Shown piece after piece: positions 37,986 through 40,649 of a stretch of 64,000 nt of DNA. Position numbers and translations under genes: made by a program. The notes under the pieces are model-generated. The model worked only from the letters and a program-made list of their open reading frames with translations, was not told the DNA's origin and made no database searches. Position 1 is the stretch's first letter, and every line of letters begins with the position of its first letter. The stretch is from NCBI GenBank assembly GCA_017466455.1, contig JAFTUD010000008.1, forward strand, positions 1 through 64,000. The letters are read 5' to 3'. This DNA is from Clostridia bacterium (GTDB lineage: Bacteria > Bacillota_A > Clostridia > Oscillospirales > CAG-272).

Positions 37986-37987
37986 AT

Positions 37988-38074
37988 CAATGCTTGCATT
38001 GTATATCATCAGCCCTTGGGCTGTATATCATCAAGGCATCGCCTTGCATATCATCAACACGGTGTGTTGCATAT
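37988..38074. repeat. array of four small hairpins with a conserved ATATC linker
   Basis: Hairpins CAATGC/GCATTG (37988), AGCCC/GGGCT (38011), AAGGC/GCCTT (38033) and AACAC/GTGTT (38056) recur every 22-23 bp. Their stems differ completely in sequence, but the linkers are nearly constant (GTATATCATC, GTATATCATC, GCATATCATC, GCATATA). Conserved linkers plus covarying stems point to selection for structure. A cruder relative is at 40534-40605. Confidence 0.75.
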
Positions 38075-38110: not shown

Positions 38111-39220
38111 TTATTTGCTTGACTTCATTCTATTATGCTCCTTGCATAGCATTTGACAGTTATCTGTGCTTGTTTTTCCGCCATCACGCCAAGGGATAAT
38201 GTGGTCAGCCTCCATTTCCTCAATGGTGTATTGTGTTTTTGCTCTATTTTCCAAGACACAGTGAGGGCAAATTCCATTTTGGCGCTCGTAGACCTTTCTC
38301 TTTTCATTATCGGTAAAGGCACGGATATTCAAATGCTTTTCGTTTCCGCTTAAAAGGTATTCATAAATACCTGAACGCTTTGTCACATCATCATCCTGCA
38401 TTAGCTTAGAAACCTTTTCCTCTAATTCTTGTGGGTCATAGTTATTATTTGCATATGTATTGTAAAGAAGCCCCCATTGAATACCCTTCATTTCCTTGCG
38501 GTACTTTGGAAAGATTGCTTGTACCCAATTTATTACATTTTGGAAATATTGCCATAGCGGAGTGGCGTGAGTATGGTGCTGACGGATTGACATATAATCC
38601 TCAAGCTTTATCCCATCTCTTGCGGAAATCCAAGATAAGGCTGTTTCTAAATAATCTTGGCGATTTACCTCTCCGTTTAGGTATTTATTAGCAAGGAGAT
38701 ACGCCACACAACCGATTTTTGAAAAATACCGCTTTGCATCGAAAAGCCATTCGCCAGTATAAATTGCATTTCTAAGCTCCTGCTCCTTTAATTGAACGCC
38801 TGCAATATTGATGATTTTAAACCAGTCAAGCTTTTCCTTGTCTGTGCCCTTGCAAATATATATCATTAAGGGGTAGTCAAGGATTTGATCCTGCTCGGCT
38901 TTTGTAAGATTGTGGAAAAATCTACTGTTCAAGGAGAAGTCGCCATTTACATATTGACAAATACTTATCGTTCTTTGTTGACCGTCAAGCAGTTCAAAAT
39001 TTCCAAAAATGTCCTCTACCCAATACATAACATTTAGAGGGAAGCCCTTTATAACTGTTTCTATAACGGCATTTCTTTGCTTTTCCTTATAGACAAATTC
39101 TCTCTGAAACGCAGGGCGAATGTTCAGCTTACCGCCATATCCAACAACGCCATGCTCTTGGCTATCCCTATATCCGTTTACTACTTCTCTAATAGTTATT
39201 TCGTGCAGTTCAATTTTCAT
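38111..39220 (-). CDS. DUF262 and HNH endonuclease domain protein
   Basis: The 369-residue protein joins an N-terminal DUF262 domain (NIRPAFQREFVYKEKQRNAV, then the NTPase-like DGQQR at 79-83) to a C-terminal HNH nuclease (GICPHCV, EADHIIPWRDGGKTSTDNCQ, with zinc Cys pairs and catalytic His340, Asn354 and His362). DUF262 proteins cleave or sense DNA in defence (GmrS part of GmrSD; BREX- and restriction-linked forms), usually with DUF1524; here a true HNH replaces it. The gene overlaps the methyltransferase by 11 bp and is its probable partner. Cleavage specificity is unknown. Confidence 0.88.
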   Translation of the reverse strand: MKIELHEITIREVVNGYRDSQEHGVVGYGGKLNIRPAFQREFVYKEKQRNAVIETVIKGFPLNVMYWVEDIFGNFELLDGQQRTISICQYVNGDFSLNSRFFHNLTKAEQDQILDYPLMIYICKGTDKEKLDWFKIINIAGVQLKEQELRNAIYTGEWLFDAKRYFSKIGCVAYLLANKYLNGEVNRQDYLETALSWISARDGIKLEDYMSIRQHHTHATPLWQYFQNVINWVQAIFPKYRKEMKGIQWGLLYNTYANNNYDPQELEEKVSKLMQDDDVTKRSGIYEYLLSGNEKHLNIRAFTDNEKRKVYERQNGICPHCVLENRAKTQYTIEEMEADHIIPWRDGGKTSTDNCQMLCKEHNRMKSSK

Positions 39221-40220
39221 TGTTTTTTCTCCTAATTATGATTCTTCTATACAAAGATTTTCCATTCAAATCAGGTCCTCTTCCCCGCCATTCAACCCTA
39301 TGATCATCCAAACCTAAAATTTCAAATTGCTCGGGGTTGTACTTATCTATAAATGTAATAGGCACACCCATTATCCCGTCATAATCGTTAGGAATGTCGG
39401 CTGTTTTATTGACATTTATTGCGTCGTAATTGTCATATTTAGGGTATTCTTCCACATTGTACTTCTTATACAGCAATAAATCCTCGTGGCGTTTTAAAAT
39501 ATCAAGATTGGTGAACCAACATATATTCCCAAAACTTCTCCATTTTCTACCCGTTTCATCTATCCAAAATCTTGTTTCACGGGCTTCATAGTGGTTTGGA
39601 ACAGTAAATGCCATATCCCCACTATTATATCCAATCCATACCTTGTTTTCCTTTATAAGTTTGAAAGTTTCTTTGTATGTAAGCGCATTTTGATTACCTA
39701 TTATTAAGAATTTCTTATCATATTCTACAAGTTGAGCAACATATTCACGAAAGAGGGAAAATGGGGGATTTGTAACTACTATATCGCACTCTTTCAAAAG
39801 CTCTATACACTCATCGGAGCGAAAATCTCCGCTTTTCAATTTGGCACGGGTATTATTTTTATTTTTTAATAAATATTCAACATCGGATAAACCTACTGCA
39901 CCATCACCGTTTGAGTCAATAACCTCGGTAATTTCAATTTTATAGGGATTTTTCTCGGGAAACAGGGAAAGCTGAGTGCCGACGATGGGGGAAGAATCAT
40001 AACATGTGGCAATTAACTTTTTTAGCCCTAAAAAATTAAAATTCATTGCGAAATATTTGAAAAAGTTGCTCTCATACGGGTCATCACAGTTGCAAAAGAC
40101 AATTTTATCCTTAAAATGTTCTTTGTAGTGCTTTAACTCTTTTTCAATATCAATAAGTTGAGTGTAAAATTCATCCGCCTTGTTTTCTTTGGCTTTTGTC
40201 ATACTCTTGTTTCCTGCCAT
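39210..40220 (-). CDS. EcoRI-family adenine-specific DNA methyltransferase
   Basis: N6-adenine DNA methyltransferase, 336 residues against 325 in M.EcoRI. Family features are ADEFYTQLIDIEKELKHY, NCDDPYESNFFKYFAMNF, the catalytic motif IVVTNPPFSLF (151-154) and FLIIGNQNAL. RBS AAAGGAG is 7 bp before ATG 40220. No EcoRI-type endonuclease is present; the DUF262-HNH protein overlaps its 3' end instead. A long structured leader with an attenuator precedes it. Base composition is more AT-rich than that of the flanking genes, in keeping with transfer. Confidence 0.92.
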   Translation of the reverse strand: MAGNKSMTKAKENKADEFYTQLIDIEKELKHYKEHFKDKIVFCNCDDPYESNFFKYFAMNFNFLGLKKLIATCYDSSPIVGTQLSLFPEKNPYKIEITEVIDSNGDGAVGLSDVEYLLKNKNNTRAKLKSGDFRSDECIELLKECDIVVTNPPFSLFREYVAQLVEYDKKFLIIGNQNALTYKETFKLIKENKVWIGYNSGDMAFTVPNHYEARETRFWIDETGRKWRSFGNICWFTNLDILKRHEDLLLYKKYNVEEYPKYDNYDAINVNKTADIPNDYDGIMGVPITFIDKYNPEQFEILGLDDHRVEWRGRGPDLNGKSLYRRIIIRRKNNEN

Positions 40221-40264
40221 TTTGATGCTCCTTTGTTAAAATGGTCGCATCTTTTTTACAAAAT

Positions 40265-40292
40265 AAAAAAGTGCGCAACCGGAGTTGCGCAC
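40265..40292 (-). terminator. attenuator terminator upstream of the methyltransferase gene
   Basis: 9-bp stem GTGCGCAAC / GTTGCGCAC, loop TCCG, then T6, only 45 bp before the methyltransferase start codon and on the same strand. An antiterminator pairing overlaps its 5' arm. Confidence 0.8.
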
Positions 40293-40454
40293 ATAAAACG
40301 CAAACTCCACTGTGTGGCGCACAATTTAACAGGAATAACTAAATACTCCCATCGGAATTTGCATTTTTTACAAATTACTATAATGGGAGTATGACAAGAA
40401 AAAGGGTATAATATTCCCTTTGTTAGTCATTCCTATGTTATTAAATTGTGCGCC
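40265..40454 (-). promoter_or_regulatory. candidate structured leader RNA and attenuator of the methyltransferase operon
   Basis: Transcription from the promoter at 40461-40489 should start at about 40454, the first base of a 14-bp closing stem (GGCGCACAATTTAA, 40454-40441 with 40316-40329). Further stems follow inward: 11 bp (40433-40423 with 40332-40342), 10 bp (ATACTCCCAT, 40392-40383 with 40343-40352), a side hairpin AAAGGG/CCCTTT (40421-40401) and an apical AATTTG/CAAATT hairpin. After the closing stem, GGAGTTTGCG (40308-40299) can pair with CGCAACTCC (40289-40281). That pairing excludes the terminator GTGCGCAAC/GTTGCGCAC (40292-40284 with 40279-40271), which is followed by TTTTTT. No known riboswitch class is recognised. 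Function is inferred. Confidence 0.7.
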
Positions 40455-40460
40455 AAATTT

Positions 40461-40489
40461 AGTATAGCACACTTGCCTATTTTTATCAA
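40461..40489 (-). promoter_or_regulatory. promoter of the structured leader and methyltransferase-DUF262 operon
   Basis: TTGATA (40489-40484), 17-bp spacer, extended -10 TGCTATACT (TATACT 40466-40461). It is placed so that transcription begins at the base of the leader's closing stem. Confidence 0.8.
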
Positions 40490-40533
40490 GAGTTTTTTGA
40501 ATTTTTGTGAAACGAGCGAAAATGGTCAATATA

Positions 40534-40605
40534 TTTGCATAGCAAACTCGATATGTCGTTTGGACTCGATATGCCCCGTTGGGGCGCGATATGTTGCTTT
40601 GCAAC
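40534..40605. repeat. second array of small hairpins with a CGATATG linker
   Basis: Hairpins TTTGC/GCAAA (40534), GTC/GAC (40555), GCCCC/GGGGC (40573) and GTTGC/GCAAC (40593), 18-21 bp apart, are joined by CTCGATAT, CTCGATAT and GCGATAT. On the opposite strand the linkers read ATATCG, akin to the ATATCATC linkers at 37988-38074. It lies between the apt terminator and the leader promoter. Confidence 0.65.
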
Positions 40606-40613
40606 GCTAAAAC

Positions 40614-40643
40614 AAAACCGACACGAGATTTCGTGTCGGTTTT
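40614..40643 (-). terminator. terminator of the phosphoribosyltransferase gene
   Basis: Perfect 13-bp stem AAAACCGACACGA / TCGTGTCGGTTTT with loop GATT. Confidence 0.9.
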
Positions 40644-40649
40644 GTTTTA

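Follow-up and report, generated by a model that had tools for sequence, protein, structure and literature searches.

The EcoRI-type methyltransferase gene of a Clostridia bacterium is preceded by a structured leader RNA. This RNA belongs to a large family that appears to be undescribed and that occurs both in Clostridia and in certain phages of theirs. The members of this family are probably transcription-attenuating leaders: the nested stems, the terminator and two further helices, A-D and E-T, are supported by covariation, and the order of switching is inferred from these pairings. The copy described here spans the minus strand between positions 40489 and 40265 of the window (the whole 64,000-nucleotide stretch of DNA that was analysed). 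Matches to the leader, which has no Rfam name, occur in roughly one in four of the genomes sampled from a single large class, which points to an unrecognised regulon.

The Leader RNA in the Window

The features of the window copy are collected in Table 1. The promoter is of the sigma-A type, with 10 out of 12 consensus matches (TTGATA-17-TATACT) in a promoter scan. With 16 promoter-like sites detected by the same scan over 3.3 kb, where 10.5 were expected, the promoter match alone is weak evidence. The predicted 5' end of the RNA, at about 40454, lies six bases past the -10 box and at the base of the closing stem P1. This stem is a 15-bp perfect inverted repeat (40315-40329/40441-40455), of which 14 bp are paired in the predicted fold. 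A sequence-only reading of this DNA had described an extended -10 promoter starting at the base of a 14-bp stem, then nested stems, a side hairpin and an apical hairpin, and the scan and the predicted fold contain all of these elements.

The minimum free energy (MFE) of the 246-nt leader is -89.8 kcal/mol, compared to a mean of -46.7 (sd 4.26) for its shuffles (z -10.1), and none of 200 shuffles folded as well. The opposite strand of the region gives a z of -8.0. The terminator, GTGCGCAAC-TCCG-GTTGCGCAC-TTTTTT (stem 40292..40271), has an energy of -17.2 kcal/mol in an isolated platform of 48 nt. Its T6 tract was correctly recognised in the sequence-only reading, as was the capacity of its 5' arm to pair with an upstream strand: GGAGTTTGCG pairs with CGCAACTCC in the window, and this pairing is chosen by the 246-nt MFE fold, while the isolated 48-nt platform chooses the terminator.

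Table 1. Features of the leader and of the genes behind it in the window
Feature	Position	Strand	Evidence
Promoter: -35 TTGATA, 17-nt spacer, extended -10	40461..40489	-	promoter scan; family-wide register
-35 box TTGATA	40489..40484	-	
-10 box TATACT, TG before -10	40466..40461	-	
Leader RNA (a member of the clostridial family)	40261..40454	-	fold and covariance models
P1 closing stem, 5' strand GGCGCACAATTTAA	40441..40454	-	fold, inverted repeat, covariation
P1 closing stem, 3' strand TTAAATTGTGCGCC	40316..40329	-	fold, inverted repeat, covariation
Side hairpin AAAGGGAATATTATACCCTTT	40401..40421	-	predicted fold
Apical hairpin, local partner of strand A	40355..40378	-	fold and covariation
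Strand A AAAAATGCAAATTCC, proposed anti-antiterminator, complementary to D	40354..40368	-	A-D covariation, conservation
Strand D GGAGTTTGCGTTTT, partner of A; here also of terminator 5' arm and loop	40295..40308	-	
Intrinsic terminator: 9-bp stem, TCCG loop, T6	40265..40292	-	promoter/terminator scan, platform fold
Shine-Dalgarno AAAGGAG of the methyltransferase	40228..40234	-	sequence
Gene 1: EcoRI-type adenine methyltransferase (PF13651), 336 aa	39210..40220	-	ORF list, Pfam
Gene 2: GmrSD_N (DUF262) + HNH nuclease, 369 aa, overlaps gene 1	38111..39220	-	

The leader stands 45 bp before the methyltransferase, as had been noted; the ATG of this gene is at 40220, and its EcoRI_methylase match has an E-value of 2.6e-143. 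At both ends of the restriction-modification (R-M) pair (37986-38058 and 40549-40610), there are short arrays of small hairpins, with units of about 20 bp, that are introduced by TATATC/CATATC or CGATATG. The arrays are possibly the boundaries of a captured cassette. The CGATATG motif is not enriched in the window (11 occurrences against 7.5 expected). A perfect 19-bp hairpin at 40608-40649, between the phosphoribosyltransferase gene and the leader, was scanned as terminator-like on the + strand.

Homologous Leaders and the Spread of the Family

Methyltransferase homologues were compared in the best 80 of 525 loci from named genomes and the best 80 of 322 loci from viral contigs. Among the former, a homologous leader lies directly before the methyltransferase in three loci (L043, L063 and L003), all of them labelled Clostridia. 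Their stem sequences vary yet pair through compensatory changes, while the apical strand, the strand after P1 and the terminator are kept; the three loci also share the domains of the nuclease partner. Together with the covariation of the family described below, this indicates that the window leader is more than a chance fold. The best 80 viral-contig loci contain no model match, and no additional methyltransferase leader was found among 92 sources with the second of the models described below. A fold z-score screen covered 157 of the 160 methyltransferase loci (two upstream stretches were too short and one contained N) and is rough, with 20 mononucleotide shuffles per locus.

Two covariance models were built, R1 from seven copies, of which four precede methyltransferases, and R2 from 38 copies. 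The window leader scores 148.4 bits with R1 and 133 bits with R2, both of which include it among their training sequences. R1 matches 69 of 291 genomes (E<=0.01) in the class of G001, the genome of L043, which is labelled Clostridia and whose class is taken as Clostridia by inference. This class-wide search scored no more than 8 candidates in each genome and, thus, its copy numbers are lower bounds; each of eight copy-rich genomes, with 150 candidates scored in each, has 7-13 copies (E<=1e-4). R2 matches 62 of 297 genomes in the order of G001 (E<=1e-6). As a control, the order of G004, the genome of a Bacteroidaceae-labelled locus, gave a match in one of 198 genomes, with an E-value of 0.004. 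The 149 genomes searched in the class of G007 gave no R1 match, which is empty evidence, since R1 misses G007's own leader (L028).

In viral contigs, the pattern GTTTGGCGACTATCGG retrieved 13 stretches, five of which are true copies (three distinct: L161, L168 and L170), and the exact patterns GGAGTTTGCGTTTTNNGTGCGC, GGCGACNAYCGGAGYTTGCGTTTTT and GAATTTGATAAAAATGCAAATTCC occurred in none. The three distinct copies precede genes that read by eye as lipoprotein-like or zinc-ribbon-like, the Pfam zinc-ribbon match being below the cut-off. The L161 and L168 contigs encode a phage terminase large subunit. The L168 copy has no blastn match in phage and plasmid collections. Rfam matches to a DUF3800-VIII RNA and three RAGATH-5 ribozymes are also found on the L168 contig (4126-4192 and 7532-9192).

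The family has no match in Rfam 15 at or near the gathering score, in either the gathering or the evalue mode (about 20 of 102 copies searched), in agreement with the sequence-only reading, which had recognised no known RNA family. The core strings of the leader are absent from the searched literature, and the topical papers listed were negative as far as titles and abstract openings go. PMC8040213, as far as its available text goes, describes candidate RNAs of human microbiomes in the thousands, and the leader may be an unnamed entry in large candidate lists of this kind.

Variation in arrangement was also observed. Tandem leader copies, about 80 to 680 nt apart, occur in L199, L189, L205 and L211; in L205, a shortened duplicate of the gene downstream of the second copy stands behind the first. 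Several copies in L252-L263 are shorter (about 165-180 nt) and have no side hairpin; in these, A and D change together (GAGC/GCUC versus GAGU/ACUC).

Promoter and Downstream Genes

The genomic setting was examined in A4, an alignment of 102 copies at E<=1e-4, 101 of them distinct. These come from 30 loci and 60 more stretches, mostly the best-scoring of the listed matches, plus the window and five seed loci; the rows are not independent, since several copies come from one genome and kinship is uncorrected. The promoter lies outside the model. At least four of the six -10 bases are present in a fixed register in 88 of the 102 copies, compared to 128 of 2040 random places. A T is found at -35 in 98% of copies, with TG at -15/-14 and TATAAT at -12 to -7; the TG of the extended -10 is present in 82 of 102.

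An open reading frame of at least 45 aa with a Shine-Dalgarno sequence and ATG begins within 130 nt downstream of 71 of the 102 copies. The same strict test finds such an ORF divergently upstream in 5 of 102 and at 71 of 1020 random places. With a looser test, the counts are 90 of 102 downstream (87 of 102 in the per-copy listing), 21 of 102 divergent and 297 of 1020 at random; loosely defined ORFs also arise by chance. In the 87 copies with a near ORF by the looser test, the median distance is 21 nt, and the start codon lies 9-49 nt past the RNA in 66. The placement points to a promoter-proximal 5' leader of a same-strand gene. The looser test finds no ORF within 130 nt in 15 of 102 copies, which suggests that a few copies may be free-standing RNAs.

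Of 85 distinct downstream proteins, 82 were scanned. The most common Pfam families are LRR_5 (11), LRR_8 (7) and Cu_amine_oxidN1 (5), then EcoRI_methylase, DUF6809 and LRR_4 (4 each), M23 (3) and MazE/AbrB-like (3). The four EcoRI_methylase proteins are those of the starting loci, and this methyltransferase is also the sole PADLOC family among the 82 proteins. Most copies precede surface proteins (with leucine-rich repeats and others), cell-wall hydrolases, lipoprotein-like proteins and small Cys-rich proteins, the lipoprotein and Cys-rich labels being given to translations read by eye. The scanned proteins have a surface theme and not a metabolic one.

Covariation of the Stems and of Two Putative Switch Helices

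In the nested structure, with P1 consensus GCCAAAC:GUUUGGC, 86.7% of 5512 alignment cells are paired and 57 of 60 pairs have double changes, A4 having been fitted to this structure; none of 500 shuffles was as high on any of five measures. The terminator helix is paired in 97.6% of cells.

The two remaining helices lie outside the model. In A-D, AAAAAUGCAAAUUCC of the apical strand pairs with GGAGUUUGCGUUUUU of the strand after P1. This helix is paired in 97.4% of 1329 cells, with double changes in 7 of 15 pairs, and on all five measures no shuffle out of 500 was as high. In E-T, E (CNAUCGGAG) pairs with CUUCGGUNG, in the loop and 3' arm of the terminator. Here 89.1% of 874 cells are paired and double changes are found in 48 cells, of which 37 belong to a single pair; none of 500 shuffles was as high on three measures, while 8 and 9 were on the other two. 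In 28 loci outside A4 (L268-L295), nine of nine E-T pairs are formed in 23, with the combinations CUA:UAG, CAA:UUG and CAG:CUG. The own pairing exceeds swapped pairings at p 5e-5, with kinship uncorrected, the strands having been cut by a motif expression so that only the variable positions are informative. E-T is not universal: seven of nine pairs are reached in 85 of 100 copies, and the window copy has three of nine and L174 four of nine.

The window copy carries the family A and D. Invasion of the terminator 5' arm and loop by D was seen by eye only in the window copy and in L043/L174, the nearest relative, and in the other copies read by eye the terminator 5' arm is incompatible with D pairing. 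The antiterminator of the sequence-only reading, therefore, exists in the window and is not the family-wide one; it is taken as a local variant of the family-wide theme. That reading was right about the antiterminator logic, which the covariation of the family supports, and it missed A-D, the most conserved switch pairing.

The conservation of A and D is 0.92-0.94, compared to 0.43-0.45 for P2 and P3. As in riboswitches, a conserved core is combined with variable, covarying stems across many loci. In 90 of the 102 copies (12 were unparsed), the A-D score is 27.9 for a copy's own strands, 25.8 for swapped strands and 13.1 for shuffled A; the margin over swapped strands is modest because the A and D strands are so conserved. 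In 70 copies, own A-D pairs are better than those with copies of the same genome (p 0.006 with Watson-Crick pairs only and 0.019 with G-U), which indicates that A-D acts in cis. No trans cross-talk between copies was detected, as same-genome A-D pairs are no better than other-genome pairs.

A Proposed Three-Strand Switch

In the proposed mechanism, transcription would start from the extended -10 promoter at the base of P1, and the RNA would fold as a long stem with an apical hairpin carrying strand A and, in longer copies, a side hairpin. The overlapping strands E and D lie past P1 and are followed by the intrinsic terminator and then by the next gene. From the pairings, A-D may be read as an anti-antiterminator and E-T as an antiterminator. 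E and D share CGGAG, so A-D and E-T are mutually exclusive, and E-T pairing is also incompatible with the upper part of the terminator. With A paired to D, E would be blocked, the terminator would form and the gene would be off. When A is kept in its own hairpin, E would be free, the terminator would be disarmed and the gene would be on. The A-D state would, on this order of events, presumably be the off state. In the window copy, the same result would be reached by D itself invading the 5' arm of the terminator, and the switch would gate the methyltransferase-nuclease pair.

The mean energies over 100 copies are -17.6 kcal/mol for the A-D duplex, -4.1 for the apical hairpin and -14.2 for the terminator; the platform with the antiterminator forced has a mean of -16.4 kcal/mol (88 copies with at least six pairs). 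These mean energies are comparable in magnitude, which a switch requires. In a stem shaped as a straight rod, A is far from D and, thus, A-D pairing would need the rod to bend.

Other Putative Control Devices before the Same Methyltransferase

In other lineages, different elements occupy the place of the leader. A cluster of 24 loci (23 Bacteroidota-labelled and one viral contig) has a different upstream stretch that is strongly folded in many members. Like the clostridial leader, it is structured and precedes the same methyltransferase family, but its sequence differs and it matches neither R1 nor R2. It appears to have a strand-exchange logic of its own. The cluster includes L018, L019, L038, L039, L053 and L064, and further copies are found in L264-L267; in many, a hairpin GATTGATAGT..ACTATCAATC lies just before the start codon. 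The exact 5' motif of this leader occurs in 4 of 295 genomes in the order of G004, the string being too strict, since it misses G004's own copy. All four copies precede the methyltransferase and, thus, the Bacteroidota leader looks dedicated. In 22 sequences (18 of the 24 cluster members and L264-L267), the 3' strand of the apical hairpin is complementary to its own terminator region (-15.9 against -11.3 kcal/mol for swapped strands, p 5e-5), although the wrong hairpin was picked in several, where the own duplex ranked low.

A GC-rich leader in L028 (2090-2267, Eggerthellaceae-labelled) and L109 has the stem base GCCAAAC:GUUUGGCGAC as in the family, with a 19-bp A-D duplex of -35.1 kcal/mol in L028; neither locus is matched by R1 or R2. 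Downstream in this leader, a third strand repeats the P1 5' strand (GCCAAACUGUCG), which it could displace.

In L013, L016, L017, L031, L084 and L125, a stretch immediately upstream of the methyltransferase reads like a small gene, and a Cro/C1-type helix-turn-helix (HTH) domain (HTH_26) was found in the two of these six genes that were scanned. The product is likely a controller protein. No ORF of at least 60 aa at 40220-40600 in the window reads by eye as an HTH gene. A single methyltransferase family, therefore, seems to have acquired control devices of at least three different kinds in one position: the general leader, the Bacteroidota leader and the HTH gene.

Alternative Explanations and the Nature of the Signal

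A long inverted repeat that is multi-copy and present in phage contigs could be an inert palindromic repeat or a miniature mobile element with long inverted termini. This is highly improbable: the copies keep a promoter in a fixed register and an oriented placement before a Shine-Dalgarno sequence, they have compensatory stem changes and two non-nested helices, and their stems differ rather than being copied. The inert scattered repeat, which the sequence-only reading had named as its own refutation, is not what was found. Each copy could also be a discrete small RNA, a trans-acting unit of about 190 nt from promoter to terminator, with the genes behind it separate or reached by chance read-through. 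Such an RNA would have its own promoter, a strong terminator and a defined size, as these copies do, and both the 15 copies without a near ORF and the conservation of A and D beyond the need of cis pairing would fit it. It is nevertheless quite unlikely, and less likely than a leader, given the one-sided placement before strictly defined ORFs (71 against 5 of 102). Furthermore, the median of 21 nt leaves little room for a second promoter, a simple small RNA would have no use for the covarying antiterminator, and A-D complementarity tracks the molecule and not the genome. The 6S RNA and other single-copy small RNAs were rejected because the family is multi-copy and tied to downstream genes.

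If the RNA is a transcription-attenuating leader, it could be specific to R-M systems and delay the expression of the nuclease when the genes enter a new host, as the sequence-only reading had suggested. Four methyltransferase loci carry it (the window, L003, L043 and L063), and in other lineages an HTH gene or a different RNA stands at the same place, so control there seems to be favoured. An R-M-specific role is unlikely, since among 118 loci fetched with the models, tblastn found the methyltransferase in one, L174, which is the seed L043 again; most downstream genes are of other kinds, and defence families are limited to the four starting methyltransferases. As an exclusive function, the delay of nuclease expression is refuted by these counts.

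A and D are near-invariant while the other stems drift, and A-D acts in cis yet is conserved beyond the need of pairing, so its sequence is kept by some other constraint. The A-D/P1 region is probably read by a ligand or protein that acts in trans. A version of the main switch in which a conserved RNA-binding protein, and not a small molecule, acts on A or on the A-D pseudoknot is a possibility of somewhat less than even weight. In its favour, conservation is concentrated in short strands and at the base of P1, with no elaborate aptamer core; against it, the common candidate proteins are absent from most of the 20 carriers examined, and the analysis gave no protein candidate. CsrA was rejected as a common factor (0 of 20 carrier genomes), as were ANTAR proteins (3 of 20, the search giving no match in 14 control genomes) and Hfq (5 of 20). 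These genomes are drafts and, thus, single absences are weak. Cyclic di-GMP is also unlikely as the common signal, as no GGDEF protein was found in 10 of 32 RNA-carrying genomes, likewise drafts; none was found either in 4 of 20 genomes without a leader match.

It is tempting to speculate that the family is the read-out of a global signal in gut and rumen Clostridia, either a small-molecule messenger of a new kind or an RNA-binding regulator that has gone unrecognised, which would set the surface proteome, some phage-borne genes and, in places where the cassette was captured, an R-M system. It would do so by a three-strand switch that brings the tip of a long RNA stem back onto its base. This is a plausible though tentative reading, held at a little under even weight. 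The core and the switch strands are specified, as are predictions for single bases, and the signal can now be hunted.

Comparison with Known Systems

Restriction-modification systems are regulated by controller (C) proteins. The control of the methyltransferase described here would act at the same place, but the window device is RNA-based and is common to genes outside R-M systems.

The c-di-GMP riboswitches I and II are multi-copy in Clostridia, where they precede genes for surface proteins, lipoproteins and phage functions. These target kinds are like those of the leader family, which has no Rfam match. The T-box and the PyrR/TRAP-type attenuators work by the interplay of terminator, antiterminator and anti-antiterminator, and the proposed logic is alike; the leader, however, has no Rfam match to them, and its downstream families contain no pointer to tRNA synthetases, amino acids or pyrimidines.

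More generally, the riboswitches and attenuators of Bacillota use a mutually exclusive terminator and antiterminator and occur in several copies per genome. Those with intrinsic terminators share with the present family the 5' leader position, the strong promoter, the exclusive terminator and antiterminator, and the scattered multi-copy distribution. The difference is that here the proposed anti-antiterminator is situated in the apical hairpin, at the distal end of a long stem, and would pair with a strand beyond the closing stem.
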